Below are positions 11,337 through 54,972 of a stretch of 64,000 nucleotides of DNA, one piece after another. The position numbers and the translations under genes are program-made. The first letter of the stretch is position 1, and every line of letters starts with the position of its first letter. This DNA comes from Rugalucina vietnamica (taxonomy: Eukaryota > Mollusca > Bivalvia > Lucinida > Lucinidae). The DNA lies in contig OZ024873.1 in assembly GCA_964017185.1 (NCBI GenBank), forward strand, positions 51,260,760 to 51,324,759, written 5' to 3'. The notes below the pieces were generated by a model, which saw nothing but the letters and a program-made list of their open reading frames with translations, had not been told where the DNA came from and did not search any database.

Positions 11337-11353
11337 GGGGGGGGGGGGGGGGG
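11337..11353. repeat. G homopolymer
   Basis: Seventeen G in a row. Another run of about ten G lies at about 57051-57060. Confidence 0.9.
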
Positions 11354-20307: not shown

Positions 20308-21387
20308 GGACTCTATGATGGCCCCGACTTAAAGCTATTCATTTTAGTTGGTTGGGACCGGAGCGTCTTGTCTGTTGCTTGGCCCACCGGGGTCCAACTG
20401 ATGTTTTTCTTTTGCTCCGGAGTTAGTAAGTTATTCGGCGCCCAGGGATCTCCATCGTCGGGCAGCTTACTGAATCTGTGAGTCCTGGTATTTGATTCGT
20501 CAGGATGTTTTAAATTATCATGATTTATTTGTTTGTTCTTGATGATTCATTGACTAGTTAGAGATTCACCACGAGGACCGAAGAACTAACTAAATGTTAT
20601 GAACTACTGCAGAAGCTGAGGGTGAGGTTATGGCCATGTAAAATCGATTTAAACCCGCCAGTAACTTTGTGTTACTGATCGTTCCAAGTCGATACTTCTG
20701 TGGTGGTTCTTTTTGTTTCATGTCTTGGTGTTTAAATTATTTTGTGCTGTTGGCGCCTTATGTATGTTTTCATATTTTAGTTAAGTTAAGGTAACTGAGT
20801 GGCCACCTATTGGGAAAATAGCTGCTCATTCGGCTTACGAAATGTTTTATGGTATAAGTACCTAATTGTTACTTTGGTTTTTTCCCACCTCGGTTTTTGG
20901 AGTGGGAATCTTTCTCTGATTGCGCCTTTTCCTGATCTTTGCCTACTTGTACCTTGTTATAATGTAGACTCCCATCGTTGATTTATCAGCGAACCTTAGA
21001 AGCATTTTTGGTATGCGAAGTGTGGGAAGGTGAAACCAAGTCGGAATTGGGATATATTTAAATGTGAACTGTTAGACGCCGCTCCCTTTGAACGAAACAA
21101 TTCTTAACCGCTTACGATTGAGTATCTTTATGTAGGTTATTCGGCGCCCAGGGATCTCCATCGTCGGGCAGCTTATTCAATCTGTGAGTCCTGGTTTTTG
21201 ATTCATCATGATGTTTATCATGATTTATTTGTTTGTTCTTGATGATAACTAGCCAATGAATCACTTACTAAATCCGGAGCAAAAGAAAAACATCAGTTGG
21301 ACCCCGGTGGGCCAAGCAACAGACAAGAAGCTCCGGCCCCAACCAACTAAAATGAATAGCTTTAAGTCGGGGCCATCATAGAGTCTG
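20308..21387. mobile_element. Foldback element with long inverted arms, containing family C
   Basis: About 120-base arms (20308-20427 and 21264-21387), with CTCTATGATGGCCCCGACTT at the left and its complement at the right, enclose a minus-orientation family C copy (about 20430-20955). A direct repeat of GGCGCCCAGGGATCTCCATC (20440 and 21144 regions) lies inside. May be the full-length form of family C. Confidence 0.75.
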
Positions 21388-33413: not shown

Positions 33414-34147
33414 TTATCTCTTGGGATATGGAGTAAAAACAGTTGTTTCCTCTACATCATCATCAGCAGTGGTTGTCTGAGCAGTGGAAGTTGTTGTAGA
33501 GTCGGACGTTGTTACCGATGCAGTGCTTGTTTCTGAGGCGGTTGTCGTTTCATCAGCAGTGGTTGTCTGAGCAGTGGAAGTTGTTGTAGATTCGGTCGTT
33601 GTTACCGCTGCAGTGCTTGTTTCTGAGGCGGTTGTCGTTTCATCAGCAGTGGTTGTCTGAGCAGTGGAAGTTGTTGTAGAGTCGGTCGTTGTTACCGATG
33701 CAGTGCTCGTTTCTGAGGCGGTTGTCGTTTCATCAGCAGTGGTTGTCTGAGCAGTGGAAGTTGTTGTAGAGTCGGTCGTTGTTACCGATGCAGTGCTTGT
33801 TTCTGAGGCGGTTGTCGTTTCATCAGCAGTGGTTGTCTGAGCAGTGGAAGTTGTTGTAGAGTCGGACGTTGTTACCGATGCAGTGCTTGTTTCTGAGGCG
33901 GTTGTCGTATCATCAGCAGAGGTGGTGTCACAGGCAATGGTTGTACTAGAAGGAGTTGTTGTTTCTGGGACAGTTGTTGTTTCTACGGTTTCTGTGGCAG
34001 TTGTTGGTTCTGCTGTAGAAGTTGTTTCTGTTGTTGGTAGTTCAGTATTTCGCGGACATGTCGACATTTCCGTACAGCTAAATGAACCAACGTGATCAAT
34101 GCACTGTTCCCCTGGGTGACATGAATTTGGAACGCAGTCATTAAGGC
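33414..34147 (-). CDS. Exon 23: partial EGF and Thr-rich mucin-like tail, stop
   Basis: Acceptor GGTTTTCAG; reads 244 codons to TAA at 33414. It begins with an EGF-like start ([15 protein letters not shown], then VGSFSC) whose last half is missing, followed by about 200 residues of Thr, Ser, Ala and Glu. Five copies of a 30-residue unit lie at 33461-33910 (90-base period). Dense O-glycosylation is expected. The protein ends VFTPYPKR with no membrane anchor. An ATTAAA hexamer on the minus strand at 33330-33335 is a possible polyadenylation signal. Confidence 0.8.
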
Positions 34148-37100
34148 CTGAAAACCAGAGGACAAATGGTCCTGTAAACGCTCACCTGACCTACATGTAG
34201 TTATCACTTTTTCGATGTAAAAGCCTATGTTTCCAAAATTAACCTTGCTGTAAAATAGATCAAGGTCATCCTAGGGTCATCATATGTACAAGCTATGATG
34301 GGCTGAAGTCCTAAATGCTACATACTGAGTTTCGTGAAAATTGGCCAGCCGGTTCTGGAGAAGAAGATTTTTGAGTGTTTTTTACCAGATATGGGCATGG
34401 CAGCCATCTTGGTCAGGTAACCCGGATTTCACGATCAGACTTTCATTCCCCCTACCCATGGATGCTCCACATAAAATTTCACTTTGATTGGCCACGGGGG
34501 TTCAGAGGTGAAAATGTTTGAAAAGTGTGTATGGACGACAGACCATGGCCATGGTTAAGAGATGACCTTGATCTAAATTAATCACAAACCTTCATTTAGT
34601 TGTTTGCATTTACCACTTTTCAGGTCTCAGGCTGCAATAGTTTTCAAAAAATCCATAGTATTTACTTTTTCCCATGTAAAAGCCTGTGTTTCCAAAATTG
34701 ACCTTGCTGTAAAATAGGTCAAGGTCATCCCAAGGTCATCATTTTATCAAACTATGATGGGCTGGAGTCATCGATGCTACATACCAAGTTTCGTGGAAAT
34801 CGGCCCACCGGTTCTGGACAAGAAAATTTTCGAGTGGTTTTACCATATATGGGCGTGGTGGCCATCTTGGTAATGTGACCTGGATTTCGCGATCAAACTT
34901 GAAATGCCGCTACCCAAGGAGGCTTTAATTAAAATTTCAACTTGATCGGCCAAGCGGTTTCAAAGAAGAAGATCTTTGAAATTGTTGACGATGACGGACG
35001 GACGACGGACTCAAGGGCACCTAACTCCGCAGTCCATGGTCAAATCTCGTGGAATTCTGAACTCAACCGAGATCTCATGGCTGTCCTTGTTACATGGAAG
35101 AATAAAACGATCTGATCAAAAATAACAAAGTTAATGCGTGGACACCATTTTCCCATTATAAGTCTATGGGGATTTTTTCAAACGCTCAAGGGCAGATAAC
35201 TCCGCGGCCCGTGGTCGGATCTGGCTGAATTTCAAACTCGTCCGAGCTCTTATGAATGTTGTTATTCCTTGCGAGAATGGAAAAGATCTAATTGAAAATA
35301 GCGGAGATAATGCGTGGACAACATTTTCTCCATACAAAGTCTATGGGGATTTTTTTCAAACGCTCAAGGGCAGATAACTCCGCGGCCCGTGGTCGGATCT
35401 GGCTGAATTTCGTACTCGTCCGAGATCTTATGTATGTTGTTTTTCCTTGCAAGTATGGAAAAGATCCAATTGAAAATAGCAAAGATAATGCGTGGACAAC
35501 ATTTTCTCCATACAAAGTCTATGGGGATTTTTTTCAAACGCTCAAGGGCAGATAACTCCGCAGCCCGTGGTCGGATCTGGCTGAATTTCGAACTCAACCG
35601 AGATCTTATGTATGTTATTGTTCCTTGCAAGTATGGAAAAGATCCAATTGAAAATAGCGCAGATAATGCGTGGACACGATTTTCCCATTATAAGTCTATG
35701 GGGATTTTTTTCAAACGCTCAAGGGCAGATAACTCCGCGGCCCGAGGTCGGATCTGGCTGAATTTCGAACTCATCCGAGCTCTTATGTAAGTTGTTGTTC
35801 CTTGCAAGTATGGAAAAGATCAAATTGAAAATGGCAAAGCCCCACCACAATGATGCCGCATATAAAGCTTGATTGTGATCGGCCAAATGGTCTCAGAGAT
35901 ATTCATCTTTGAAATTGTAGACGACGGACGGACGCCGGATCATGGTCATCCTATAAGCTCAGCTTGTGAGCCTTCGGCTTAGGTGAGCTAATAAGCAAAA
36001 ATAGTGGTGTTTGTGCATTTCTATTATTGAACATTCATGACACTCATACACTGTCACCTGGCACGTATTACGTGATTGTTTATATACAAAAAGTATATGA
36101 AAGGTGTATGTGTTGTTTTGCAGATTTAGAAACAATGTCTGTTCGATCAATTAAGTACCTGATTTAAACAACGCTTATAACTAACTTTATTTGATATATA
36201 CCGCATGTACACACTGTTTTTGTATTCCCGCTTGTGATGGAAGTAGACAATACTTTGAAGCTGACCTGTCTAGGTCTAAATAAAATTATAACGGAAACTA
36301 CATGTTATAATGATACCTACTCGGTTCTTCCATAAATTCAGGGCAGACTTCATCATCTTTCCGACTGCTTGTGCTGCTCCTGTTGGTGCTCCAGCTCCTT
36401 TTATGTCGCCTTTGACCTCTTCGATTTGTGTCTTTGTCTATAGCCAAACAAATATTTTGAATAAATTGATATTAAACCTTATCCTATAAATTGCTGTGTG
36501 TTAATATATTTACTTTCAAGAGGCGAGATCGGGAACTCTATATTTTTCTTTGCGGTGTGGAGCGAAATGGAGAGTTCAGGGAACGTCACAATCGTCACAA
36601 TAAAATAACTTTAGCTTATCCCAAACAAAGAGCAAAATAAATCTATAATGAGCATGCATTAATACTTGTTTCTAACGAAGAACATTCTTGAATGTCGCAT
36701 TTTGCAGATATCCTACCTTCACTGTTACTGCTTTCGCTGCTTTCGCTACTCGACTGGCTTTGGCTTTTACTTTCACTGCTTTTCGATTCTTTGCTTTCAT
36801 GTTGGCTGTCTAAAATAAATAAACTACTTCGTGGACTAGCTGATAGGTGTTTCTATGTTTGTACCAAAGTTTATACATTACTAAAAATATATATATTGAT
36901 TATGTTAAAATCTGTAAATCATCTTGATGATGCGTGTTGATCTTCTTACTTTTATTTAATATTCAATAATTGCTATCCTGTTGTTGTGGTTTATTTTTGT
37001 TTTTTCTAAACAATAATTGTGTATTCGAAATCAGGCCGTACATTTCAAACAGCCGGGAATTTTAATTTCAGCATGCTATTATAAGAAAAGAGCATTGTTT

Positions 37101-40100
37101 CTTCATAAAAGCCAAGAGGCCGAAAATTTGAACAAAGAGTGACTTTAGAATTAAATTTATATTCTAATTATATTAAGGCATTATAGCATATTCCTTGTGC
37201 TTAAATATGTGACCTGGATAAAACAGAATTTTACTTATAATAATCAAGTAATTACCTGTAGGTTCACCGATGACGTACACTTCACAGAGCACCATTTGCT
37301 GTCCCGATCCCACCACCGTCACGTACATTCCGTGTAATGAATCGGGACATTTCACTTCAATCCTGTCATACCTTGCGGCAGGGCATTGTACAATACCGCA
37401 CATTTTTCCCAAGTCGTTTTTGTTGCTACTTATATAAACGGATGCGTTGCATAGTTGTTCCTCTGAAGTAAAATAAATTTTATTTTGCCATCAGGAAAAC
37501 ATGTCCGTGTAATGTGTACCCCCTTGAAACCCACTTTTATATAGCAAAATTGGGGTATGCAGGGGTATACCTATTTTTCTTATTTTTGCTCCAAAACATA
37601 GATTGTGGGTACTCGTTAGAACCGCCTCGGCGAGGCGGTTCTAACGTGTACCCACAATCTATGTTTTGAGTAAAAATAAGAAAAATATCAACATTTTTCT
37701 GCTGAACATTTTCATTTTTTTTAAGCTAAAAAATCTCTGTTTATTGCATGGGCAAGTTTTCGTAATGCAAGGCATTATAGCAATTAGTTTGATATAGGCG
37801 TGTCTCTTATAATTTTAAGGTAAACGTTTGCCTTCTGATAAACAACAAATATAAAACTGGAAGAACATACAACAATGTATTTAAGCATCTGGGCCCAGTT
37901 GTTCAAAACTAACGACGCCGTTAGTTAACGTTACGTTAAAATTTCAAACATTAATATTACAAATACACTGTTATTTTTGTTGAAAAAATGTGAGAATCTT
38001 TTGCAAGGATTCTCACATTTTTTCAACAAAAAATAACAGTGTATTTGTTACTTTAGCTGATATTTGCTAAACAAATTTATGTCCTAACGATATCGTTAAG
38101 CTAACGATGCTTTGAACAACTGGGTCCAGGTTGTAATGTTTTATTTTGGTAACTCAACGTCATCATGAAGCGTGGCCTAAAAATCGTTAAAATGTATATT
38201 ACAATTTATATAAAAACCACTTCGCTCCCTTTATACTCATTCATAAGGACTCCGAGTATTATCGTAAGGCGGCATTTAGTATTGATCAATTATTTGTCGA
38301 AGACATCTCAGATCATTTTTGACCTGCATCCCGGTTTTTTTTCCATATGGAAGATGAAAAAGGCAACAAACTGCATCTCTTTAAAAAGTTCTTTAAGATG
38401 ATGTTTTTACTATACAAAGGTACAAGTAGGCACAGATCAGGAAAAGGCGCAATCAGAAAGAGATTCCCACTCCAAAAACCGAGGTGGGAAAAAACCAAAC
38501 TAACAATCAGGCACTTATACCATGAAATATATCGTGAGCCGAATGAGCAGCTATTTTCCCAATAGGTGGCCACTCAGTTACCTTAACTTAATTAAAAATA
38601 TGAAAAGATACATAAGGCGCCAACAGCACAAAAAAATTAAACACCAATACATAAAACAAAAAGAACCACCACGGACGTATCGCCTTGGAACGATCAGTAA
38701 CACAAAGTTACTGGCGGGCTTAAACCGATTTTACAGGACCCTAACCTCGCCCTCAGCTTCTGCAGTGGTTCATTTAAACACAAATATAAACAAGAAATAA
38801 GTCATCATTGATCCTTATTGTTATTCATTTTAATCGCTTTTTGTGTGACGAAAGCTTTTGCAAAGAAAAATTGTGGATTTTGAAATTTTATGATCCATGC
38901 AGGCCATCGAAGATAAGATGCGTTCGGATTTTCTCCATTGAATATAGGCGTGTTCAGATCAAAGGCTCTGCTTCACAGAACGAGTTGTTTCCGCCAGTAA
39001 GGGCTCACCGCACAATAACGATATTTTTACTACATTGTTTTAATCAGATTGATATCCAGGAATTTTGGGGTAGGTATATATGCATTAAAACTGTCAACGT
39101 TAAAACGAATAGGTACAGTTTTTTTCACTGAGCGTTTAGCTGTCAGGCTTAGATACTGATGTCATTTCAACAACAGAGCAAATTAGTCTTGTGTCCGCCA
39201 AAGATGGATTTCTGTCCCACATCTATATATCTTGTGCTTAGGTATCACTACTACATCACTGAGCTTCTATGCACTGTCAACAATTTATATTTTAGAATAA
39301 ATCATAAATAAAATGTACATCATGCATCCTGTACCCTATTGCAGAACAGATATTAATCTTCGACAATTATCATTTTTAAAGATATTTCTTGTTTATGAAT
39401 ACAGGTGATGCTGTCAAAGTTAATGTTTAAAACTGAACTCTGGAGGAAGGTTTAACAAATGACAATTGTAGTCTATAATCTTACGGCAGCAATCTGGTCT
39501 GTTTACTATCACAACGGTAGAAACACTGTGTCGTCCATTGAGCTTTACCTTCCACTTGGGGTTTTGCGTCGAAGTTATCTTTGAACACTCACACAGGGCG
39601 CTGAATTTTCCATCAATGGCCTTGTCCGACTCAGCCTGCCACTTTGCCTGACAACTTTGCTCAGGGCTGTGGATCTTGACAACAACAATGCCTTGAAATA
39701 ATAAATATACATCAGGAAAACACGTCCGTGTAATGAATACCCCCTTATACCCTACTTTTATATAGTAGAACTGGGGTATGCAGGGGTATACCTATTCTTC
39801 TTATTTTTGCTTCAAAACATAGATTGTGGATACATATTCCTATTTTTCTTATTTTTGCTTCAAAACATAGATTGTGGGTACCCACAATCTATGTTTTGAA
39901 GCAAAAATAAGAAAAATAGGTACATGTGTACCCCTGCATACCCCAGTTTTGCTATATAGTGGGTTTGAGGGGGTTAACATTTCACGGACATGTTTTCCTG
40001 ATGGTTAAAGAAAAAATATACACAGTGTATAAGGTCATTTAATCTTTTGAAGAAAGAAGTATTACATGTAAGAGAGCTTCATGTTTTTCGTTTGCGTTAT

Positions 40101-43100
40101 ATGCTACATGTACGATAGTGTGTTTGACAGATACTTACACTTTTTACTACTAATTATTGAAAATATTAGGTTCAAACCGTGGTTTATCTGCAAATATACA
40201 TCAAACTTACACTCAGTTTGATCTTCATTAGGGATTTGGTGTGGTGGGCATTGCATGCATTCTTCGCCACCAGACAAAGCTATCGCATTAGGAGGACAGC
40301 ATACACATTTAGATCTCAGATAATTAGCCACAGTGCCGTTAGAACACGGGGTACAACTAGTCGCACTTCCAGTTTCACTGACGTAACCGGGAGGACAATT
40401 CTCACACTTTTCTTCAGTTGCATCAAAGTACTGTCCAGCTTTACAGGCCTCTATAGATGAAACACATTCAATCAGAAAACACTCGAAATTGAACAATTCT
40501 GTACTATTTATGTATACAAAAATGTTACTTGTTCTGTACTTGTATTATTGAGGCGGGATTTTTAGATTTTATTAAAGATAGACGCATAAGTTTTGTGAAG
40601 AGCTAATCTACTTTTTTATCCCTCATTCAGCCAGTTTCCATTGTGCTTGTCTGCTTCCATGTAAGGTTGGATTTGCATGATAAATTTTCTATATTAACAA
40701 ACCGTGGCTCTTAGGTATAAAGTGTTATGTGTAGTACAATGCAATACAATATAGTATGAGACTGATAATGTAGACATTGTGTCCTTTGGAATCGCCGAGA
40801 TTGCATGATTTTTATCAAAAATTACGCATATGTAGAGGCAAGGAGACCAAACCATGCTCTACTTTCTTTGTTATTTTTTCTCACTGCTGACATGACATTT
40901 GTTAAACTTTTCCTATGTCGAAATTCATTTAACTAAATAGGCAAAGGCAATCGTAGCACCAAGTAATGTTACAGATGTGAAATTTTAATGAAAAATTTGA
41001 TTTACAGATATAAAAAGGACGACTGCAACAAGCAGTATCAAGAATGTTTGAATTTTATTTAATATTTTATTTACCATCCTGACAGAGTGGACCGGTGTAG
41101 CCATCCACACATTGACACGTAAATCCCCCTGGAGTATTGCTACAGGTTGCACCGTTATAACAAGGATCACTGGGGCATTCATCGATATCTGGGCAATATA
41201 TAAACATAGCATTGGTATACGGGTTATGTAAATAAACAAACACGACATTTACATCAGATATTTAGACAATAAACACATTAAATTGATGTTTAATATCTGG
41301 ACAATAAACAAACAAAACATTATATACATGGATACAACAAACGAACATTGTATTGATCTTTACATCGATTCTGAAAAGTCTCACTTTAGAAACAAAACAT
41401 CCAAATTTTGGGCTTACCTTGAGAGCAATTTTCACCAGTCCATCCGGGAGCACACTCACATTGATAACCCCCACAAAGGTTGTAACAGGTGGCGCCGTTC
41501 TGACATGTCATGGCACTGTTACACTCATTGACATCTTGACAAATACAAAGTGATATAATTGCATTTAAGACAGTCGGATTAGATTTGACAAGGGTTTAGA
41601 ATTTTTGTAGAATTCATGGTATTAGAAACCTATAGTGACTTTTTCTGTTAACTAGAGTTTAATTGGAAGTCTCGTAACTTTGTCGCCGAGTGCACACGTT
41701 ATCACGTCATATGTGTGTGCCAGGTATTTGTACATTTAGCAGAGAGCATTTAACTTTTATTCATTTGTAAAGTTGCTAAATAATTCTAATTAATCTTTTA
41801 CCTATTTCACAATTATTTCCCATCCAACCAGATGGGCATGTGCACGTGTAACTCCCGTTGTTATTATTGCACGTGCCACCATTCTTACAGGGTCCGTAAC
41901 CATAGTTACCATCCTCCATACACTCATTTACGTCTGGAAAGTATAACGAGAAAATTTACGAATGTGGATGGCCCATACTATTTCTCGTTGAATGTTTTCA
42001 TGGCTTCCAAAGAAACTAACTTTTATATTTTAACTATTCATGCAATTGGAGAATCTTTGAATAGCTTTGAACTACGTAGTAGTTTTGGGTTTCCCTGCCT
42101 TCTTAACTTCAGCATCAGTATTTTATATATGGGTTTTATTTTCTTAATTCCTGCTTACTACATTAAATGCCCATTTTTGACGCATCATGCACATCATGAC
42201 TTTCCCCAGCAGGCACATGACGTAAGAATGATGTCAGATTGACGTCATGGCGTCGCATCGACGTTGATATGATGTCATTTTGACGTCATGTGCCCGCTGG
42301 GTCCTCTGTCAGGTGATGAAGCCAGTTATTTATTTGATGTACGTAGTCAATATATAGATGGCTCACCAGTAGTACAAACGTCACCGGTCCACCCACTTGC
42401 ACAGTTACATTGGAACCTGCCCGGTGTGTTGATGCAGAGTCCGTTATTCTTACACGGCTGGTCAGTGCATTCGTCCTTATCTGTAGAACACAACTATGTT
42501 TTTCAGTTGTAGCTATCGTTTTATCGTTAACTTTTCGAAAACTTGCCCATGCAATATACAGAGATTATGTTCAAAAGCAAAATTTTAAAATTTTATTTAA
42601 AAATTTTGATATTTTTAATAGTTTTGCTCAAAACATAGATTGTGGGTTTAAGTTTAAACCGCCTTGGCAGGGCGGTTCTAATGAGTATATAGAATCTAAG
42701 TTTTTGACCAAAAATAAGAAAAAATAAGTAAACTAAGTATAACCCAGTAAAGCCCAGTTTTACTTTATAAAAGTTGGGTATGAGATGTGTATATCTCAGG
42801 GATATGTTTTCCTGATGAATTCTAGGTTTAAAAACGGACGATTGTGTCTTCAACTTCAACTTCAATGACATTTCTTGTCAAAATCCGCTGGGCAGACATC
42901 TCGACAAGGATGTCGTTCAGAGGATGTGTTTATATCTACAGACATATTGAATATTGTTATACACACAGAACTGTTGTAACAATACGACCGATTAGCCCAT
43001 GTAATAAAGTAGTAAAGTAACAAATAAGTATGCCAGACATAGTGTAAAGCCTAATGACATGACTGTGTAGTAAAGATCCAGGCATCTGGTTCTAACAAAA

Positions 43101-46100: not shown

Positions 46101-49100
46101 CAGGAAATGAAGCATTCAGAGAGAATGCTACAATTTAGACAGGCCGCTTCTTCCCATCAAGATGGTCCATCTGAAATGGGCGGTTTGCCTTTATTACGTC
46201 AGGGTGAACATTTGTCACCAACATGACAGGCATACATGACAGTTTCGAACCCGCAACCTCTAGATTGCTAAGCGAATACGCTATCCATTACACCACCGCG
46301 GCTGTACAATGCAACTGTCTCCATTTAGATTTGTGATAATCTACAAGGATCCAAAGCTACAATTGGAAGATTAAATGCGCTGTTCAAACTTTTTGTCTTA
46401 AACCTCGCAGTACATAAGATGCAATATGTTAAAAATCTTACAGATACTATTATAGTCAATATCTTGCAAATCATGTTTAGCATTTTAGACTCTCCTAGAA
46501 ATAACTCAATATTATTTTTAAAACCAAGGGCAGATGAATCTATAATAAACTGAGAAGATAAATCTGTATTTCCTACCCGTCTCACAGTGGTCACCAGTCC
46601 AGCCATTGTCACAAGAACAGTAGTAACTGCCCTCTGTGTTGTTACATGTCCCGTGCTCACCACATGGACTTGACGTCTCACACTCATTAATATCTGATGA
46701 AACAGACATAAAACAGTTTAATAAAGGTAAAGTAGTTACAGTAGTTAAAATACAAACGATGACAGAGGATTTATACAATCAGGCTGAAGGTCTGACCAAC
46801 AACAAAATATATATAAATTTATAGAAACCGTGAGTATATTCTTAAATGTTACATAGTTTCTGGAACGGTAAAGGTTAACAATGATCAAGAAATGATGCAT
46901 TAAAAAAGAATGCTACAATTCTGACAGGCCGCTTCATCCCATCCGTCTGGACATTAACAGTTGAACCTCGATGGTCCATCTGAATTGCAACAGCCTCCAT
47001 TTAGATTTGTGATTATTTACAAGGATCCAAAGCTACAAGTAAAAGATACAATGCGCTGTTCAAACTTATTGTCTTAAATCTCGCTGTACATAAGATGCGA
47101 TATGTTTAAAATCTTACAGATACTATTCCAGTCAATACCTTGCAAATTCTGTTTAACATTTTAAGTCTTTCCTAGAAATAATGGATTTATACAATCAGGC
47201 TGAAGGTCTAACCAACAACAAAATATATATAAATTTATAGAAAGGTACAAGTAGGCAAAGATCAGGAAAAGGCGCAATCAGAGAAAGATTCCCACTCCAA
47301 AAACCGAGTTGGGAAAAAACCAAACTCACAATCAGGTACTTATACCATGAAACATATCGTAAGCCGAATGAGCAGCTATTTTCCCAATAGGTGGCCACTC
47401 AGTTACCTTAACTTAACTAAAAATATGAAAACATACATAAGGCGCCAACAGCACAAAAAAAATATACACCAAGACATAAAACAAAAAGAACCACCACAGA
47501 AGTATCGACTTGGAACGATCAGTAACACAAAGTTAACCGTGAGTATATTCTTAAATGTTACATAGTTTCTAGAACGGTAAAGGTTAGCAATGATCAAGAA
47601 ATGATGCATTAAAAAAAGAATGCTACAATTCTGACAGGCCGCTTCATCCCACCCGTCTGGACATTTACAGTTGAACCTCGATGGTCCATCTGAATTGCAA
47701 CAGCCACCATTTAGATTTGTGATTATTTACAAGGATCCAAAGCTACAAGTAAAAGATACAATGCGCTGTTCAAACTTTTTGTCTTAAATCTCGCTGTACA
47801 TAAGATGCGATATGTTTAAAATCTTACAGATACTATTCTAGTCAATACCTTGCAAATTCTGTTTAACATTTTAAGTCTTTCCTAGAAATAATTCAATACT
47901 TTTTAAAACCAAGGGCAGATAAATCTATTATAAACTACGAAAATAAATCTGTTTCTCTCACCCGTCTCACAGTGGTCACCAGTCCAGCCATTGCCACACG
48001 AACAGTAGTAACTGCCCTCTGTGTTGTTACATGTCCCGTGCTCACCACATGGACTTGACGTCTCACACTCGTTAATATCTGATGAAACAGACATAAAACA
48101 GTTTAATAAAGGTAAAGTAGTTACAGAAGTTAAACTACAAACGGTGACAGCGGATTTATACAATCAGGCTGAAGGTCTGACCAACAACAAAATATATATA
48201 AATTTATAGAAACCGTGAGTATACATGTATTCCCAAACGTTACATATTGTCTAGAACGGTAAAGGTTAACAATGACCAGGAAATGAAGCATTCAGAGAGA
48301 ATGCTACAATTTAGACAAGTTGCTTCTTCCCATCCGTCTGGACATAGACAGATGAAACCAGATGGTCCATCTGAACTGCAACTGCCTCAATTTAGACATG
48401 TGCTTATTTACAAGGATCCAAAGCTACAATAGGAAGATAAAATGCGCTGTTCAAACTTTTTGTCTTAAACCTCGCTGTACATAAGATGCGATATGTTAAA
48501 AATCTTACAGATACTATTTCAGTCAATACCTTGCAAATTCTGTTTAACATTTTAAGTCTTTCCTAAAAATAATTCAAGATTTCTAAAACCAAGGGCAGAT
48601 GGATCTATTATCAAATGAGAAAATAAATCTGTATTTTTCACCCGTGTCACAGTGGTCACCAGTCCAGCCATTGTCACACGAACAGTAGTAACTGCCCGCT
48701 GTGTTGTTACATGTCCCATGCTCACCACATGGACTTGACGTCTCACACGGATCCAAAGCTACAATTAAAAGATAAAATGCGCTGTTCAAACTTTTTGTCC
48801 TAAACCTTGCTGTACATAAGATGCAATATGTTCATTATCTTATAGATACTATTTCTGTGTATACCTTGCAAATCTTGTTTAGCATTTTTAGACTTTCCTA
48901 AAAATAATTCAAGATTTTTAAAACCAAGGGCAGATGGATCTATTATCGAATTAGAAAATAAATCTGTTTCTCTCACCCGTCTCACAGTGGTCCCCAGTCC
49001 AGTCATTGTCACACGAACAGTAGTAACTGCCCACTGTGTTGTTACATGTCCCGTGCTCACCACATGGACTTGTAGTTGCACATTCGTCTATGTCTAAGGA

Positions 49101-50856
49101 AACAGAATTTAAAACAGAATTTTATATCACCACATTGTTGTTGACAATTTCATATGATGTTTCACCTACGGAAAGAACAAATAAAGTGTGTGAAACCGAA
49201 GCAATTAGAGCCAGCATTGCGCTCTAAAACAAGTCTGGAATACAAGTTGTTTGATACAAAGACAGCAAACGGTCATTCGCGTACCCCATAATCAATAACT
49301 AAAGGGTTAAACATGTCGTGGATAATGACACGGTTGTCACGTAAAAAGGTTTTTTTGTTCATCTTTTTCTTAAGGCATGCCAAACTATGAAAGTTCGAGT
49401 ATGTTGAGCTCTCAACATTATCTTAAAGTTTTTAGATATTGCAAAACGATAACTTAAAGGCTTTTAGCATAAATGCAGAACGAAATAGCATACATATTCA
49501 TCAATGACTTTTTAAGGAAAAGAAAACGCTCAGTGCGCGGTGGGACGTCATATGATTCAAGCTGGAAGCAAGATAAAGAAGAATGAGTCTCATATGAACG
49601 AGAGCTCACTAGACAATATTCTTACCTCCAGCATAGCAGATAGTGGCATTTATCTCACAACGGCTGTTGATAATGAATGCACAATCCCAGTAATGTTCAT
49701 ATCCCCATAGGTGATCTTCGTCATAATAATTATCCACCGCATAATCAACATAATAAGGACTTGACATCTCACATTCTTCCTTGACGTATGTAATGCTTGG
49801 ATGGGTTTGTCCCTCGGGTAACATTACGTTGCGACAATTCTCGACGTGACAGATTTTACTCTGTGCGTATTCACTTTTACAATGGAAGGATACTGTTCCG
49901 CCTGGGCATGGTTGTGAAGGTCCTAAAAGAAGACACAACAGAATGATTTTCGAAGATGGCTAGAGGCTTGAAATTTTGGATTTAGAAAGAAGAGGAATTG
50001 TACTATCCGTGTAGCGAAAACAAAGGCGCTGATCAGCGCCTTTGTTTTCGCATATGCAGATTGTTGGTTTTCTCATGAGGTGGCTCATTTTTCTGCTGAA
50101 TCAAAACCTGTCCATTGTGTGTAAAATAAGGCTGAGTTAATCGTTTCGTCATTATTGTATAAAACAACGAAAACGTAAACAATTTTTGAAAACGGGCTTT
50201 ACAAACTAAGCAATAAACTTTCGAATCATTCCTTAGGATCATGCGAAACCGACAAGACGTTTGTTTGAGCCACCTCGTGGGAAAACCAACAATGTGGTTT
50301 CCGAACAGGTCTGACGCAAACCGGCCTGTACAAGCACAGAAAAGAGCTAGAAGCTTGAAATTTCGGATTTAAGTAGAAGAGGAATTGTACTATCTGAGTA
50401 GCGAAAACAAAGGCGCTGATCAGCTTCGCGGTTACCGCGAAGCTGATCTGCGCCTTTGTTTTTGCCTTTGCAGATTGTTGGTTTTCCCATGGGGCGGCTC
50501 ATTTGTTTGATATACTTCTCCCTATGTCAATTGAAATACGCATACTCCCTTTGCGATTCCGACTGGGCCATTTTGTCTGCAAAATGTGGATTTTGTAACA
50601 ATTTAACCGAAAATTAAAGATGTTAATCTGAAGAATATGTCCACATATATCACTTAATACCCACTTGTAAAACTGGTGTGTACACATTTGTTTCTCTTAA
50701 CATCATCTTCTTGAAAACATAGTGGGTACTCATTACAACCACCTAGCCAAAGCGGTTCTTACGCGAGCCCACGATCTATATATTATCGAATTATTAGGAA
50801 ACACATCAAATGTTTTGTTGTTTTTTTTTGTTTGTTTGTTTGTTTTTTTTTTTGTT

Positions 50857-50898
<42 letters not shown>

Positions 50899-51209
50899 AA
50901 AATTTTTTTTAATAAAAAATTAAGTTTTTACTGGTGACAAAAACTGAATATTGTATAGGCTAGTCTTCATAAGGCTTGATATACCTATTTCACAGTATTC
51001 TCCAGAATATCCATCGAGACATTCACACTTGTAACCGCCGTAACGTTTCAGTCTGCATACTCCACTATTTTGACAAGGCCCTCGACCATCATTCTCAACA
51101 CAGTCCACTGACAATAGAAAAAATAAAAAGGACTATTCATACGTAAAATCATATTCTAACACCACGCTATCGTTTTTCCTAATGGAAAGTCGCCGTTTGC
51201 AAATTAACA

Positions 51210-51262
<53 letters not shown>

Positions 51263-54200
51263 TATGAATATTGATTTCATGACTCGTGTTCATTTTCAGA
51301 ATTTTTTAGACAAGTTCGTCTGACTTCAGGGACATTAGAATATTAACTTTTCTACAAAAATGTGCTAGGGAGACGGTTATGATGTCTGGACATTGGTTTC
51401 CGCCACATAGCCCCTCCCAACACAGCTCAATATACTGTCACACATTTTGGCGCACCCTTGTTGCTTGAAGACTTTTTGTTCTGTTTTAGTTAAGTCAGGT
51501 CTGAATCTTATTTTGTTTTATGAGACACATTTCGCATTATTTTAATTCTTTATTTGACTTCACAATATTTGAATGAATTTTCAATTTTAATGTCTAATCA
51601 CAAATAGGTGCAATATTGCAGCATTTGTGGATAAACTTAATGAACGTTAATAATATTACTCATTAGGATTTTTTCTTTAGATATTTTACTGACAGGCATT
51701 GGTTCCTCAGACTATATATCTTACATGTACATCACACATTGTTTTAATATGCATGTTGTAAATATTGTGTAAATAGTATTTTTTATTTTGTTTTTCATCG
51801 AGGACCATGTGAGATTAGTCTTGTACTAATATGTTATCCCCGTAAAACCAAGCGTGTTGCTAATATTAGAATTTCCACGACTGTGAAAGGACGAGTGAAA
51901 ATATTTATGCTTTTTTACCGACTTTGAATCTATATGGTATTCAAAGCAATCACAGTAAATTGTCCTTTTATTTTATACAATACATGCACGCACAAAATAA
52001 ATTGTATGAGCAGTAGTTGGAAAATCTAAAACGCAAAAACATGAAAACGCAAATAGTTTTGTTATCAATTTGTTCCATACGTTTTTACAGAGAAAATGAT
52101 GTTTTCATTTACATATTTATATGCATGTAAATTTCTGTACTGAAGCTCATTTATTCACGATAAAGCGAATGAAAACGTCAAATATAATCCAAAATTCTAC
52201 ACTGAAAAATATTCATTTATGAAAAGATCACTATCATATTAGCAAACTTCTTAGAGTTACTAAGCCTATTCAGTACTTACATGAACCATAACATATTTCA
52301 GTACCACTTAGGTCACACCCTTGGTTCGCAAGGAGGTAGCATGGGTCAGATACAAGTATGGTTTCACAATTATAGGTCCAAGTGTTTGGTTTATTATACT
52401 CAAAGTCGACATAATGAACATATTGACAGGATGATTCCATTCCGTTGCTGTCTCTAACTTCAGGGCGATATGTTCCATCGACAAGTAGAATTCTATTTCT
52501 GCTGTGTCGGAAGTAACAACCTCTAGTTCCCACGGCTTCACCTTTACAATCGTTCAGTAAAATGGTTCCTTCCGGACAGGGATCTGGTACACCAATGCCA
52601 CTTGCCATAGAAGGGCCGCCTGAAACAAAAATAATACTGTTATCGCCATATACCCAGCCTCTTCTCAAGACATACAGGGTGTTTCATAATATGTGCCCCC
52701 ATGTATGTTGCTCAAACGTCAAAAATTATTTAACCCATATTTGACGAATGGATTTTCCCATCATTATCATTTGGGCGAGTCCACTTCAGTTCATGGGGGC
52801 ATAAGGTGTGATTTTTAAATGTTATTCAAGTTTTCGATGAAAATTCTATTAGCAAATAGAAAAGCCCCAGATGGGACTCCGCGTTCTGCGGCGTCACATC
52901 TGGGGCTATTCTGTTTGCCTTTGTCCCATAAAAGGGACGCCAGGCTTAAATGAGTTAAGGTGTGAGTCGCAATACAATGTCATATAATCAACATATATCC
53001 TATTTATTCACAATACATACATTGCTATACATGTCACATAAAATTCGGCATGTGTTCAAACTAGATGCTTATGGCATACACCAATTCAACGTTTACGATT
53101 TCTATGCTGTGAGATGTGATGTCGGGTAGCCTCTTTCCTTGCTAAGTTACATTTGAATAAAAAATATGAGCCGCCTCGTGGGAAAACCAACAATGTGGTT
53201 TCCGAACAGGTCTGACACAAATCAGGCTGTACAGTCACAGAAAAGAGCTAGAAGCTTGAAATTTTGGATTTAAGTAGAAGAGGAATTGTACTATCCGAGT
53301 AGCGAAAACAAAGGCGCTGATCAGCTTCGCGGTTACCGCGAAGCTGATCTGCGTCTTTGTTTTCGCCTATGCAGATTGTTGGTTTTCCCATGAGGCGGCT
53401 CATATAAAGGTTTGATCCTTTGGAAGAAGTAAAAATATCCAAAGGGAGATAGTATGGACTATATTGCGCAATTTCGGGTGATGAATCCTCATCAGTAGCC
53501 CTGTTTAAACCGGCAACGAAAGCCAGACTATTGTACTGTAATTTCAAAATATTTACACAAGAAGTCTAAATCAAAGGACTATTCCTAAATGGGGTCAAAT
53601 AATTGAAACATTGCTTAGAAGTATGTTTCTAAACATGAGTGTTTCGAACACTCTGAATATCTTTACTGATCTCAAAGGACCTAAATAAAAGTATAATTTG
53701 TACTATAGATGATGTACGGGGAGGCATTTTATGGCCGCCACACGGCACAGCACCAGCTGCAGTAATAGCAAATAAAATATAAAGTTTTGATGCTTTGGAA
53801 GCAGTATGGACTATATTGCGCAATTTCGGGTAATGAACCCTCATCAGTAGCCCTGTTTAAACCGGCAACGAAAGTCAGACTATTATACTGTAATTTTGAA
53901 AATTTACACATTAAAAACATATCTAGTAAAGGTGTAACCTTACATGTGTATTCGTGAAATATATTCTTTTCGACTCATTTCTTCTGCAAAACCATTATCA
54001 GAGGTAATGTTTTAAATTACAGATTTTCAATGTACTGTCAAATGTGAATTCAACGGTGGAAACCTACAAGGTGGGGGACGGGGGGTAAATCTGTGCCAAA
54101 CGAGAGGGAGTTAGTTTCTTTAAAATTATCATATTATTGTAAGAAAACATAAATTAAGATATAGAATTAGATTATATAGCAAAATACTATAATTTGCTTA

Positions 54201-54972
54201 TTGCAAACTTAAAATTTTGGTAATCTATTTATGCACGAATCACAGGTTCACAATGAGGTTATGGCCATGTAAAATCGATTTCCTGATAGGTTTACATGTA
54301 TACTAAGAAATCATATTGTAAGCCGAATGGGCAGTCATTTTTTCAATAGGTGGCCACTCAGCCACCCAAACTTATACTCAAACTTAACTAAAATATGCAA
54401 ACACACATAAGGTGCTAACAGCACGAAAATTCGAGAAGACATAAAACAATAAGAACCACCACAGAAGTATCGCCTCGGAACGATCAGTAATATAAATCAC
54501 TGGCGGGCTTAAATCGATTTTACATGGCCATAACCTCATTGTGAACCTGTGATTCGTGCATAAATAGATAACCAAAAGTTTAAGTTTTGGAGCAAAAATA
54601 AGAAAAATAGATATACCCCTGCAAACCCCAGTTTTACTATATAAAAGTGGGGTTCAAGGGGGTATGCATTACACGGACATGTTTTCATGATGTCATAAGT
54701 TTCCGATCATTCTCCTTATTGTTTCAACATATTATCGAAATTTTAGAGATGTGATAAAGTCTAAGATGAAAACAAAAAATTGAATAAAAGTGAAAATAAA
54801 ATGAGACCAATAGGCGTAAATAAATAAATAAATAAATAAATAAATCTGAATAAAAGTGAAAATAAGTTGAAACCGATAGACATTAATAAATAAATAAATA
54901 AATGAATAAATAAATAAACCTACCTGTACCCGAGAGGGCAGCGAATGCTAAGAGTTGTAACAGTATCCACAT
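33414..54972 (-). CDS. Secreted multi-EGF / F-type lectin / mucin-like protein, 23 coding exons
   Basis: Spliced gene model read directly from the minus strand; the exons are listed separately. All 22 introns interrupt codons after the first base (phase 1) and have GT donors and AG acceptors. The joined frame stays open for 1313 residues. Order: signal peptide (1-17), 8-Cys domain (17-129), EGF (130-170), second 8-Cys domain (171-269), thirteen EGFs (270-781), GCC2/GCC3-like module (782-861), F-type lectin domain (862-999), Ser-rich linker (1000-1030), basic linker with a furin-type site (1031-1069), partial EGF plus Thr-rich tail (1070-1313). There is no transmembrane segment, so secretion is expected. 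EGF and F-type lectin assignments rest on cysteine spacing and family motifs. The role is inferred: an extracellular matrix, cell-surface or immune lectin-like glycoprotein. The exact orthologue is not recognised. The least certain points are whether all near-identical EGF exons join one transcript and where the 3' end of the mRNA lies. Confidence 0.85.
33461..33910 (-). repeat. Coding minisatellite, 90 bp x 5
   Basis: Five in-frame tandem units of 90 bases encode [20 protein letters not shown]-type 30-residue repeats. Copies are nearly identical, so unit number probably varies between individuals and could change mucin tail length without breaking the frame. Confidence 0.9.
34210..35035. repeat. 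Two direct repeats of a molluscan-type dispersed unit
   Basis: Units start near 34218 and 34676 (period about 458) and share GTAAAAGCCT, CCTTGCTGTAAAATAG, CTATGATGGGCTG and GGCCATCTTGGT, ending in ACGGACGGACGAC. In intron 22. Confidence 0.75.
35127..35835. repeat. Tandem array, 178-bp unit, four copies
   Basis: CAAACGCTCAAGGGCAGATA recurs at 35179, 35357, 35535 and 35712. Units are over 90% alike by eye. Followed by a GACGGACGGACGCC-type end at about 35925-35990. Confidence 0.88.
36321..36437 (-). CDS. Exon 22: basic linker with furin-type site
   Basis: 117-base phase 1-1 exon, acceptor TGGCTATAG. Two donors are possible; GTAGGT after CCG A keeps phase 1 and the reading frame into exon 23. 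It is rich in Arg, Lys and Ser and includes RRHKR followed by Ser (residues 1040-1044), an R-x-K-R proprotein convertase consensus. An acidic patch with one cysteine, DDEVCPEF, follows. Confidence 0.68.
36717..36809 (-). CDS. Exon 21: Ser-rich acidic linker
   Basis: 93-base phase 1-1 exon, acceptor TATTTTAG, donor GTAGGATA. Encodes residues 1000-1030, almost only Ser, Glu, Lys and Gln, with several S-x-E sites (the Fam20C-type secretory kinase pattern). No cysteine and no fold expected. Low complexity makes exon calling harder, but both splice sites and the phase agree with the neighbours. Confidence 0.7.
37256..37462 (-). CDS. Exon 20: F-type lectin domain, C-terminal half
   Basis: 207-base phase 1-1 exon, acceptor ACTTCAG, donor GTAATTAC. 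Continues the fold with [18 protein letters not shown], a YDRIEVKC strand and the family's YVTVVG...VLCEVYVIG ending. The second basic ligand residue (CCxxR in active lectins) is Gln (CCQEQ). The domain is complete but its canonical fucose site looks altered. Confidence 0.83.
37489..37768. mobile_element. Family B element
   Basis: Full copy in intron 19, ending 26 bases before the exon 20 acceptor edge. Confidence 0.85.
37890..38128. mobile_element. MITE with TGGGCCCAGTTGTTCAAA ends
   Basis: Ends TGGGCCCAGTTGTTCAAA and TTTGAACAACTGGGTCCA. Centre (37961-38047) is a near-perfect 37-base inverted repeat with a 9-10 base loop. In intron 19. Confidence 0.82.
38420..38778 (+). mobile_element. Family C repeat
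   Basis: Near full-length copy in intron 19, well conserved. Confidence 0.8.
39485..39691 (-). CDS. Exon 19: F-type lectin (fucolectin) domain, N-terminal half
   Basis: 207-base phase 1-1 exon, acceptor TATTTCAAG, donor GTAAGATT. Contains the family's DG-K-F...C.C segment, NPKWKVKL in place of the usual PWWxVDL, and the strand ending [10 protein letters not shown], matching the NRxDCC element with its vicinal cysteines. The His of the H-x26-RxD-x4-R/K sugar motif is replaced by Lys (CSKIT for CTHT), with the 26-residue spacing kept. A family B element begins only 18 bases beyond its acceptor end. Confidence 0.82.
39710..40003. mobile_element. Family B element, short form with internal duplication
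   Basis: No central GC hairpin; a 50-base stretch containing the CTTATTTTTGCTTCAAAACA segment is repeated. Lies 18 bases upstream of exon 19 on the transcribed strand, covering the branch-point region. Confidence 0.83.
40211..40450 (-). CDS. Exon 18: GCC2/GCC3-like (ephrin-receptor-like) Cys-rich module
   Basis: 240-base phase 1-1 exon, acceptor CATCTATAG, donor GTAAGTTT. Encodes residues 782-861 with repeated CxxCPPG-type units ([42 protein letters not shown]), as in GCC2/GCC3 or tyrosine-kinase-ephrin A/B receptor-like domains. Such modules often sit between EGF and other extracellular domains. The last cysteine is completed across the next splice junction. Confidence 0.83.
41075..41188 (-). 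CDS. Exon 17: calcium-binding-type EGF
   Basis: 114 bases, acceptor ATTGCCCAG, donor [24 protein letters not shown] start and [10 protein letters not shown] end. Last complete EGF before the GCC2/GCC3-like module. Confidence 0.87.
41418..41534 (-). CDS. Exon 16: calcium-binding-type EGF
   Basis: 117 bases, acceptor TTTGTCAAG, donor [25 protein letters not shown] start and [10 protein letters not shown] end. An extra cysteine ([10 protein letters not shown]) is unusual for an EGF of this length. Confidence 0.86.
41802..41933 (-). CDS. Exon 15: calcium-binding-type EGF
   Basis: 132 bases, acceptor ACTTTCCAG, donor [24 protein letters not shown] start, CKNGGTC core and [10 protein letters not shown] end; the C1-C2 loop is long. 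Confidence 0.87.
42205..42301. mobile_element. Short MITE with CCCAGC(A/G)GGCACATGACGT ends
   Basis: 97 bases, ends CCCAGCAGGCACATGACG and CATGTGCCCGCTGGG; interior rich in TGACGTCA-type motifs. In the intron between exons 14 and 15. Confidence 0.78.
42367..42480 (-). CDS. Exon 14: calcium-binding-type EGF
   Basis: 114 bases, acceptor GTTCTACAG, donor [24 protein letters not shown] start and [10 protein letters not shown] end. Confidence 0.87.
42531..42818. mobile_element. Family B element, diverged
   Basis: Central hairpin mutated (CCGCCTTGGCAGGGCGG). In the intron between exons 13 and 14. Confidence 0.75.
43244..43369 (-). CDS. Exon 13: calcium-binding-type EGF
   Basis: 126 bases, acceptor TATCTACAG, donor [26 protein letters not shown] start and [10 protein letters not shown] end, with a longer C1-C2 loop than its neighbours. 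Confidence 0.87.
43555..43668 (-). CDS. Exon 12: EGF domain
   Basis: 114 bases, acceptor GACCTCTAG, donor GTAAGTAC. Start [16 protein letters not shown], end [10 protein letters not shown]. The first Asp of the calcium signature is Val here, so calcium binding may be weaker. Confidence 0.86.
43750..44025. mobile_element. Family B element
   Basis: Full copy in the intron between exons 11 and 12. Confidence 0.83.
44287..44403 (-). CDS. Exon 11: calcium-binding-type EGF
   Basis: 117 bases, acceptor CTTATAG, donor GTTTGTAT. Starts [18 protein letters not shown] and has [11 protein letters not shown]. The shorter spacing before C3 separates it from the GEHGTC group. Confidence 0.85.
44784..44900 (-). 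CDS. Exon 10: calcium-binding-type EGF
   Basis: 117 bases, acceptor TTTCCTTAG, donor [25 protein letters not shown] start and [12 protein letters not shown] end. Closest to exons 5 to 9 but with more changes, so probably the older parent of the array. Confidence 0.86.
45370..45755 (-). repeat. Family D repeat, long form
   Basis: Reverse copy in the intron between exons 9 and 10, including the GCTGGTGTTGTGCCGTGTGG end. Confidence 0.78.
45792..45908 (-). CDS. Exon 9: calcium-binding-type EGF
   Basis: 117 bases, acceptor TTTCATCAG, donor [25 protein letters not shown] start and [12 protein letters not shown] end. Last copy of the tight array; a family D repeat lies between it and exon 10. Confidence 0.86.
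46127..46356 (-). pseudogene. Dead EGF exon, second type, copy 4, split by a SINE
   Basis: LDPC start and acceptor at 46356, the middle interrupted by a tRNA-headed SINE at about 46176-46305, then the remaining EGF sequence with DGPS. Lies in the intron between exons 8 and 9. Confidence 0.7.
46176..46305 (-). mobile_element. tRNA-derived SINE
   Basis: On the minus strand it starts GCCGCGGTGGTGTAATGG and carries an A box (46285-46295, TGGTGTAATGG) and a B box (46241-46251, GGTTCGAAACT) at tRNA-like spacing. The T stem does not pair well and no CCA-ready tRNA can be folded by eye, so this is a SINE head and not a functional tRNA gene. Inserted in dead EGF exon copy 4. Confidence 0.65.
46577..46693 (-). 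CDS. Exon 8: calcium-binding-type EGF
   Basis: 117 bases, acceptor TTTCATCAG, donor [25 protein letters not shown] start. Differs from exon 7 by very few residues ([10 protein letters not shown] for [10 protein letters not shown]). Part of the recently duplicated array. Confidence 0.86.
46825..47190. repeat. Intron block duplicated at 47536-47895
   Basis: Near-identical direct repeat of 47536-47895, including a dead EGF exon. The intervening 47190-47245 carries the usual flank of a live EGF exon, but the exon itself is absent, and a family C fragment (47246-47535) occupies the junction. Confidence 0.75.
46917..47032 (-). pseudogene. Dead EGF exon, second type, copy 3
   Basis: Almost the same as the copy at 47626-47742 and within a roughly 365-base duplicated intron stretch (46825-47190 against 47536-47895). 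Same acceptor, same premature TAA, same shifted EGF remainder. Confidence 0.75.
47246..47535 (+). mobile_element. Family C repeat, 3' truncated
   Basis: Ends abruptly within ACACAAAGTT, where host intron sequence resumes. Inside the EGF exon array, at the site where a live exon is missing. Confidence 0.78.
47626..47742 (-). pseudogene. Dead EGF exon, second type, copy 2
   Basis: Acceptor and LDPCK start, then TAA in frame; another frame reads [19 protein letters not shown] followed by PDGWDEAAC. The frame defect after LDPC matches the other copies, so the exon died before the block was duplicated. Confidence 0.75.
47962..48078 (-). CDS. Exon 7: calcium-binding-type EGF
   Basis: 117 bases, acceptor TTTCATCAG, donor GTGAGAGA. 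Starts [17 protein letters not shown] and carries the Asn-hydroxylation pattern and the GNGWTGDHC end. Nearly identical to exons 8 and 9, and its flanking intron sequence is duplicated with it. Confidence 0.86.
48305..48423 (-). pseudogene. Dead EGF exon, second type, copy 1
   Basis: In the intron between exons 6 and 7. The acceptor ATTGTAG and start CTTTGGATCCTTGT (LDPC) remain, then a frame break with stops. In a shifted frame [19 protein letters not shown] follows, clearly the rest of an EGF. A TGA replaces the expected Gly codon before GSC. It cannot be translated as one EGF. Confidence 0.75.
48642..48758 (-). CDS. Exon 6: hybrid EGF with ALDPC start
   Basis: 117-base phase 1-1 exon, donor GTGAAAAA. 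Its body is the GEHGTCNNT-type EGF, but the acceptor and first bases (CTTTGGATCC) come from the other, dead exon type seen at 48423, 47742, 47032 and 46356. The encoded start is ALDPCETSS in place of DINECETSS, so calcium-ligand residues are lost while frame and cysteines are kept. Looks like a deletion fusion. Confidence 0.8.
48977..49093 (-). CDS. Exon 5: calcium-binding-type EGF
   Basis: 117-base phase 1-1 exon, acceptor TTTCCTTAG, donor GTGAGAGA. Starts [17 protein letters not shown] and has [12 protein letters not shown], which fits the EGF Asn-hydroxylation pattern. First member of the recently expanded group of near-identical exons (5 to 10). Confidence 0.87.
49626..49922 (-). CDS. Exon 4: unrecognised 8-cysteine domain, copy 2
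   Basis: 297-base phase 1-1 exon with acceptor CTTCTTTTAG and donor GTAAGAAT. Encodes residues 171-269. It shares with exon 2 the PCPGGT start, an early C-K pair, a YVDY motif, an aromatic stretch before a central cysteine and the ending ICYAG. The exons are divergent paralogues, so duplication is old. Confidence 0.87.
49956..50088. mobile_element. Family A element, truncated
   Basis: Left end missing. The palindrome has collapsed to a short perfect one (GGCGCTGATCAGCGCC). Within the intron between exons 3 and 4. Confidence 0.75.
50267..50501. mobile_element. Family A element
   Basis: Full copy in the intron between exons 3 and 4. TTTGTT occurs immediately outside both TGAGCC/GGCTCA ends. 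Confidence 0.82.
50712..50800. mobile_element. Family B central fragment, diverged
   Basis: GAAAACATAGTGGGTACTC, then AAAGCGGTTCTTACG, then CCCACGATCTATAT. Weak but in the right order. Followed by a long T run. Confidence 0.45.
50985..51107 (-). CDS. Exon 3: EGF domain 1
   Basis: Phase 1-1 exon of 123 bases between acceptor TATTGTCAG and donor GTATAT. Encodes a six-cysteine EGF with the core GPCQNSGVC and the end [10 protein letters not shown]. It starts with LDCVEN, not DxDEC, so it is not a clear calcium-binding EGF. It separates the two 8-Cys domains. Confidence 0.88.
52281..52619 (-). CDS. Exon 2: unrecognised 8-cysteine domain, copy 1
   Basis: Acceptor TTTGTTTCAG, donor GTAAGTAC. Encodes residues 17-129 with eight cysteines; it begins after a Gly/Ser-rich stretch with [12 protein letters not shown] and ends with GTEICYGS. 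A second copy with the same layout is encoded by exon 4 (PCPxGT start, YVD motif in the middle, ICY near the end). I do not recognise the fold. It lacks the ANYGR-type motif of rhamnose-binding (SUEL) lectins and has no EGF spacing. Confidence 0.85.
52733..52960. repeat. Family F repeat
   Basis: Longer copy, containing an internal inverted pair CCCCAGATGGGACTCCGCG / GCGGCGTCACATCTGGGG and the AAAAGGGACGCCAGGC end. In intron 1. Confidence 0.65.
53167..53402. mobile_element. Family A element
   Basis: Full copy in intron 1 with well-kept ends, flanked by TA on both sides. It abuts a family D copy that starts at about 53405. Confidence 0.83.
53403..53900 (+). repeat. Two family D copies in tandem
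   Basis: A long copy (53403-53780) followed directly by a partial one (53785-53900) sharing GACTATATTGCGCAATTTCG. In intron 1. Confidence 0.78.
54221..54572. mobile_element. Family C copy with flanking inverted arms
   Basis: Arms of about 60 bases (54221-54281 and 54507-54572), sharing CACGAATCACAGGTTCACAA, enclose an internal C segment. In intron 1. Confidence 0.72.
54583..54692. mobile_element. Family B right half
   Basis: Begins at GTTTTGGAGC and runs to the terminal GACATGTTTTCATGATG; the left half is lost. Confidence 0.75.
54820..54917. repeat. (AAAT)n arrays next to exon 1
   Basis: Two AAAT tracts separated by a repeated AATAAAAGTGAAAATAA segment, ending about 7 bases from the exon 1 donor. 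Confidence 0.85.
54924..54972 (-). CDS. Exon 1: signal peptide
   Basis: ATG followed by a hydrophobic run, [17 protein letters not shown], a typical secretory signal peptide with probable cleavage near residues 15-18. The donor is GTAGGT directly after ACA G, leaving phase 1, which matches the acceptor of exon 2. A TATA box precedes it. Confidence 0.85.

Follow-up and report, generated by a model that had tools for sequence, protein, structure and literature searches.

A mosaic F-type-domain gene of the bivalve Rugalucina vietnamica, with fast-changing paired N-terminal domains, belongs to a small family

Does a reading frame that joins two unclassified N-terminal domains to a row of EGF domains, a GCC2/GCC3 module, an F-type domain and a Thr-rich tail belong to one gene, and what kind of protein might such a gene encode? 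The frame lies in a stretch of 64 000 nucleotides (hereafter the window; C5:51260760-51324759 of the 1.09-Gb genome). We reassembled it from splice borders and phase-1 exons on the minus strand, between positions 54972 and 33414, and the result reproduced the figures of a preliminary description of this DNA: 23 exons and a coding sequence of 3942 bases, giving 1313 residues and a single terminal stop, with all 22 introns in phase 1 and bordered by AG and GT. An alternative signal-peptide start at 52649 was dropped, as its frame lacked a listed donor. The positions of all exons and related features are given in Table 1.

Table 1. Features of the gene and of related loci. Positions are those of the window unless a C number precedes them; copies A and B are the paralogues described in the text.
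Feature	Position	Strand	Content
Exon 1	54924..54972	-	start codon and signal peptide (16 protein letters), donor in phase 1; 94% identical to copy A over 17 residues
Exon 2	52281..52619	-	first unclassified N-terminal CPGG domain; 64-67% identity to copy A
Exon 3	50985..51107	-	EGF domain separating the two CPGG domains; 93% identity to copy A
Exon 4	49626..49922	-	second CPGG domain, with 27-codon hypervariable loop; 80% identity to copy A
Exons 5-10	44784..49093	-	six near-identical EGF exons with three decayed EGF remnants between them
Exon 6	48758-48642	-	one of EGF exons 5-10
Decayed EGF remnants	48404-48309, 47714-47628, 47004-46918	-	between EGF exons 5-10
Exons 11-17	41075..44403	-	seven EGF exons, collinear one to one with copy A
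Exon 18	40211..40450	-	GCC2/GCC3 (Ephrin_rec_like) module; identity 91% to copy A, 81% to copy B
Exon 19	39485..39691	-	F-type domain, first half (Pfam, PDB, tblastn)
Exon 20	37256..37462	-	F-type domain, second half (Pfam, PDB, tblastn)
Exon 21	36717..36809	-	Ser/Glu-rich linker; DNA alignment and splice sites in copies A and B, missed by tblastn
Exon 22	36321..36437	-	basic linker with furin-type site RHKR (residue 1041), also in copies A and B
Exon 23	33414..34147	-	truncated EGF, Thr-rich mucin-like tail of 90-bp repeats, stop; tails of copies A and B stop at the equivalent place
GCC2/GCC3-then-F-type loci	C5:20.80-20.82; C11:37.34, 41.24, 43.18 Mb	same strand per locus	GCC2/GCC3 and F-type matches
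Long GCC2/GCC3 frames of 2113, 1634 and 1558 residues	C5:20.819-20.823; C11:37.340-37.343; 43.176-43.180 Mb		

The domain order set out in the preliminary description was borne out by Pfam and PDB searches of the translation and by the same order in a second copy (copy A, below). Pfam returned EGF_CA at 2.5e-79 in 14 stretches of the whole protein, and exons 3 and 5-17 are indeed 14 complete EGF exons; that count leaves out a truncated fifteenth EGF at the start of exon 23, which scored 21.5 bits, below the 27-bit cut-off. Searched alone, exon 18 matched Ephrin_rec_like (GCC2/GCC3) with 26.3 bits against a cut-off of 23.1, a match absent from the listing of the whole-protein scan, and exons 19-20 matched F5_F8_type_C_2 at 4.3e-10. 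No family with this domain order was found in the libraries and open-access full texts searched, in keeping with the earlier statement that no named family was known.

A simple pattern for the calcium-type N-terminus was matched in 11 of the 14 EGF exons. The O-fucose consensus C-x4-(S/T)-C was matched in 10 of 14; in exon 16 the pattern took an earlier cysteine and the usual site follows. The protein contains 15 N-glycosylation sequons. Its last 217 residues are mucin-like, as had been described: 62% are T, S or P, the C-terminus is polar, and the tail is built from a 90-bp unit present in 5.2 copies with a 97% match. This repeat region (33460-33923) differs in length among the window copy and copies A and B. 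The motif RHKR, which fits the furin-type cleavage consensus R-x-K-R, precedes the tail in all three copies, and a second such motif, RLKR at residue 148, falls within an EGF and is unlikely to be used. When the C-terminus was read by eye, no hydrophobic anchor was seen after RHKR; a cell-surface protein, one of the roles first proposed, is thus not indicated.

The gene had been called a single-gene chimera, and as a unique fusion it is not one, since the architecture occurs at least twice more in the same genome. Copy A (C16:36.98-37.00 Mb) is intact, with 19 exons and 1240 residues from start to stop. Its 18 introns are all in phase 1, which agrees with the modular phase-1 exons first noted in the window copy, and it carries the same parts, joined in frame and in unchanged order between a single signal peptide at the start and a single stop at the end. 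Twenty-two of the 23 window exons were matched in copy A by tblastn, and exon 21 was found by DNA alignment with its splice borders. Copy B (C16:5.718-5.739 Mb) is partial: two of the N-terminal domains, EGF, GCC2/GCC3, F-type, linker and tail are present in the order of the window copy and are largely collinear with it, and a copy B exon at 29501-29376 reads in frame; a signal exon was not found there, the best match having E=6.8. Exons 2 and 4, used as queries, each have a close relative at about 36.99 Mb of C16 (67% and 80%), and exon 4 also has more distant copies at C16:5.73-5.74 Mb (40% and 38%). An extra tail exon with a much shorter repeat region lies downstream of copy B (C16:5707687-5707932, minus strand).

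The exons of the window copy diverge less than the sequence around them. Against copy A the divergence was 10.2% in exons and 27.4% in flanks (15 exon pairs; exons 1 and 23 excluded from the total), and against copy B 10.4% and 36.5% (10 pairs; exon 23 excluded), the flanks being 150 bases long and globally aligned. A figure of 7% for intron divergence, obtained from local alignments, was biased low; it was withdrawn and replaced by that for the global flanks (27%). Because a 1240-residue paralogue is open in the same order, and because exons diverge less than flanks, the frame is open beyond chance. We conclude that this is an animal gene for a long secreted glycoprotein, a mosaic F-type-domain protein belonging to a small family rather than a one-off; its structure and the existence of the family are near certain.

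Between the window copy and copy A, dN/dS was 0.42 overall; by part it was 0.28 in EGF exons 3 and 11-17, 0.23 in the F-type exons, 0.35 in exon 22 and 0.48 in exon 23. The corresponding values against copy B were 0.23 (EGF), 0.30 (F-type), 0.59 (exon 18), 0.53 (exon 22) and 0.33 overall, with 1.15 for a stretch of exon 23 that holds 2 synonymous and 7 nonsynonymous changes; exon 13 was here compared with copy B 28363-28238, the collinear exon being 26077-25952, so that its copy B figures are uncertain. It was also observed that exon 18 has 0 synonymous and 7 nonsynonymous changes relative to copy A, where neighbouring exons have several synonymous ones; gene conversion is possible. Such unevenness of dN/dS in exons 18 and 23, outside the N-terminal domains, counts against the recognition role favoured below.

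For the paired domains of exons 2 and 4 we coined the name CPGG domain. As the preliminary description supposed, they are unclassified: searched singly, neither had a Pfam match up to E=1, and when six members of the group were compared with Pfam up to E=10 the sole results were weak matches to three families unrelated to one another, the best at 0.09. Against the PDB, whether by sequence or by profile, nothing scored better than E=0.39. The two domains are 33% identical to each other by the tool's count. Compared with four paralogous copies, they show cysteines that never vary, an opening C(P/L)xG and a closing TxxCY or TxCY. An AlphaFold model of the two window copies was poor (pLDDT 48.8, pTM 0.38).

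The N-terminal domains are the fastest-changing part of the gene, mainly in one 27-codon loop. This rate comes from the single pair of the window copy and copy A, because the CPGG domains of copy B are too divergent for such a comparison. In that pair dN/dS was 0.80 for exon 2, 1.05 for exon 4 and 0.88 for the two jointly (bootstrap 0.55-1.52), against 0.30 (0.21-0.43) for a core of exons 3 and 11-20. The ratio of nonsynonymous to synonymous differences was 66:19 in exons 2 and 4 and 74:58 in the core (Fisher p = 8e-4). The exon 4 alignment is free of gaps at the DNA level and intact in frame, and 17 of the 20 amino-acid differences in it fall within one window of 27 codons, an arrangement that none of 20,000 shuffles matched. 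For the loop the ratio was 24:2, compared with 4:4 in the remainder of exon 4 (p = 0.018) and 74:58 in the core (p = 2e-4), the loop having been picked after the alignment was seen. Its dN/dS of 0.48/0.19 rests on about 2 synonymous changes, and its dN exceeds the gene-wide dS (24/67 vs 112/581, p = 0.002). Exons 2 and 4 without the loop were still above the core (42:17 vs 74:58, p = 0.034). Since the loop was chosen post hoc and contains so few synonymous changes, these results suggest, and do not prove, that it has been under diversifying selection; relaxed constraint or local gene conversion are possible alternatives.

The explanation that we favour, placing it ahead of a matrix or mucus protein, is a secreted glycoprotein that serves recognition or adhesion and bears variable heads, to which we give about an even chance. 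Such a protein would bind its ligand at the end bearing the two CPGG heads, which would touch their partner through the one loop that changes far faster than the rest. The EGF rod would serve as a spacer whose length is altered by tandem exon duplication, and the GCC2/GCC3 and F-type part might bind a component of the matrix or of a glycan that is not terminal fucose. A proprotein convertase could cut between this part and the tail, making the mucin tail a removable spacer or hydration segment. The setting might be an immune surface, a gamete coat or mucus, with the protein acting as something other than a classical fucose lectin. We infer the ligand, the tissue and the cleavage from sequence. 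Should the CPGG domains prove to be variable recognition heads, their paralogues would provide a ready test of diversifying selection in a domain without a Pfam or PDB match. Taking all parts jointly, the undescribed CPGG family would be a variable recognition head with a fixed cysteine scaffold and one fast loop, present twice per molecule on an EGF rod of changing length, the F-type domain would have turned to a non-fucose ligand and the tail would be released at the furin-type site, amounting to a self/non-self or gamete recognition system undescribed in this lineage; we consider that full combination rather unlikely.

The next explanation, which we hold to be possible if less probable than the favoured one, is a structural matrix or mucus glycoprotein of shell, byssus, egg capsule or mucus, in which the EGF rod and tail would provide bulk and calcium binding and the N-terminus would be loosely constrained. 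The Thr-rich tail, with its 62% of T, S and P, and the Ser/Glu-rich exon 21 would suit such a protein. EGF proteins are named among mussel foot and clam biomineralisation genes (PMC5549309, PMC8902148), and a fucolectin-type domain is said to occur in the shell of Mya truncata (PMC8902148). However, general relaxation does not lead one to expect what is seen in exon 4, where a single loop has changed and the protein segments on either side of it are 96% and 95% identical. Even if this were only a matrix protein, its domain combination would still be unusual, and its gene would clearly illustrate how phase-1 exons are shuffled and EGF exons multiplied.

A soluble fucose-binding F-type lectin of innate immunity, with EGF domains added, seems improbable. 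The F-type part resembles FBP32 (3cqo, 3.3e-19) and the 158-residue lectin 1k12 (6.8e-10), which we take to be the eel agglutinin AAA, and the F-type fold named in the preliminary description therefore stands by homology. When the three copies were aligned to 1k12 and FBP32, C50, C82, C83, C108, C124 and C146 were kept in each, and with them the adjacent Cys pair and both fold disulphides. The fucose contacts of the eel lectin are given in PMC5712786 as His52, Arg79 and Arg86, within a motif H..RxDx4(R/K) whose last residue is basic; the spacing from His to the first Arg is 24 residues as printed there and 26 by that paper's numbering and the 1k12 segment. Arg79 and Asp81 (R-P-D) are retained in all three copies. 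However, each has Lys for His52 and Gln for Arg86, so that two of the three contact residues are lost, the motif does not fit, and the label of fucose lectin is not supported. The cation motif h2DGx (x = N, D or S) is represented by AIDGK, of which the first part fits and the last residue is K. Changed fucose-contact residues may mean another specificity or lost sugar binding, according to the same paper (PMC5712786). That three constrained copies share the same residue change argues for altered function and not for recent decay. An F-type domain kept under constraint after the loss of its canonical fucose contacts bears on how new ligands are gained.

Among the matches listed, and grouped by eye, F-type matches occur at 12 places besides the three copies. 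In at least 4 of the 12, GCC2/GCC3 matches precede the F-type exons on the same strand at a distance of 1.7-11.3 kb, a further point against a unique fusion in the window; the 4 are a lower bound, because GCC2/GCC3 scoring covered 150 of 815 candidates and these did not include the modules of the three copies. Many GCC2/GCC3 places among the matches listed have no F-type match nearby. These loci share order and strand with the window gene and differ from it in that their GCC2/GCC3 matches lie in long open frames of 582 to 2113 residues. The pairing of GCC2/GCC3 with F-type seems to be an old module that has been put to use again in this gene. Three of the long frames, with many GCC2/GCC3 matches and with F-type exons downstream, are entered in Table 1. 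Elsewhere, at C16:31766430-31768523 (minus strand), at least 16 short, regularly and closely spaced matches to the start of the exon 20 half-domain appear to form a tandem array of a partial F-type domain.

EGF exons 5-10 are 85-97% identical to one another, and all are best matched by a single exon in copy A. The three decayed remnants between them match an intact EGF at copy A 11292-11408, two of the three with a stop inside the match. It follows that the EGF rod of the window copy seems to have been lengthened as a unit of two EGFs was duplicated several times over, with the loss of one EGF of the unit to decay; the tandem repeat of 335 bases at 48410-49072 is part of this duplication. As a separate observation, the last intron contains an insertion of about 1.8 kb (34155-35990, ends placed by eye) that is absent from the last introns of copies A and B; only 7 bases separate its end from exon 23, so that the insert now supplies the more upstream portion of the acceptor. 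These remnants and this insertion might be taken to mean that the window copy is a duplicate in decay. Each of the 23 exons that it retains is nevertheless open and has splice borders, and dN/dS against copy A is 0.42 overall and 0.30 in the core; we regard decay as highly improbable. Introns of about 0.2 to more than 2 kb could conceal gene ends, so that two adjacent genes (CPGG/EGF and GCC2/GCC3-F-type-mucin) might have been fused by the gene model, and copy A, being a duplicate, could reflect the joint copying of an adjacent pair and is not fully independent evidence, but we ruled this very unlikely reading out because copy A, with flanks 27% diverged, joins all the parts in one frame in the same order and phase, and copy B retains the order too.

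How does the gene compare with known systems? Notch and fibropellin are calcium-binding EGF stalk proteins, and the window protein has the tandem EGF_CA domains of that class; it resembles them in its phase-1 EGF exon arrays with calcium-binding and O-fucose consensus sites. In contrast to them, neither Notch repeats nor ankyrin nor an avidin domain was listed by Pfam up to E=1, and no membrane segment was visible. It shares a Thr-rich tail with gel-forming mucins, whereas von Willebrand D and cystine-knot domains were not listed by Pfam. The gene is of a kind with mosaic F-type-domain proteins, which in PMC5712786 include Drosophila furrowed and CG9095, sea urchin SpCRL and a Nematostella protein where CCP and EGF-like domains accompany an F-type domain, so that F-type/EGF mosaics have already been reported. 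As in those proteins, the F-type domain lies in a long protein with other extracellular modules, and CG9095 likewise lacks two residues of the triad (PMC5712786). Unlike them, the window gene has no CCP or C-type lectin domains listed by Pfam, and it has paired CPGG domains, a GCC2/GCC3 module adjoining the F-type domain and a mucin tail preceded by a furin-type site. Oyster sperm bindins, which are F-type lectin repeats, are similar in being an invertebrate gene family with a fast-evolving surface and a possible recognition role (PMC5712786). However, oyster bindins are recognised by one to five F-type domains without other modules and by a fast-evolving pocket; here the fast part is the CPGG domain, and the F-type domain is slow (dN/dS 0.23), single and accompanied by an EGF stalk and a mucin tail.

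Other elements were seen in the window. A SECIS element on the minus strand (21320-21387) scored 39 bits against an Rfam gathering score of 35, and a selenoprotein gene on that strand is possible; no coding exons for it were identified by eye in the open frames. Two reverse-transcriptase fragments were also present, one at 15620-16456 on the plus strand (RVT_1 1.9e-6, just under the cut-off) and one at 60895-61254 on the minus strand (RVT_1 7.6e-16).
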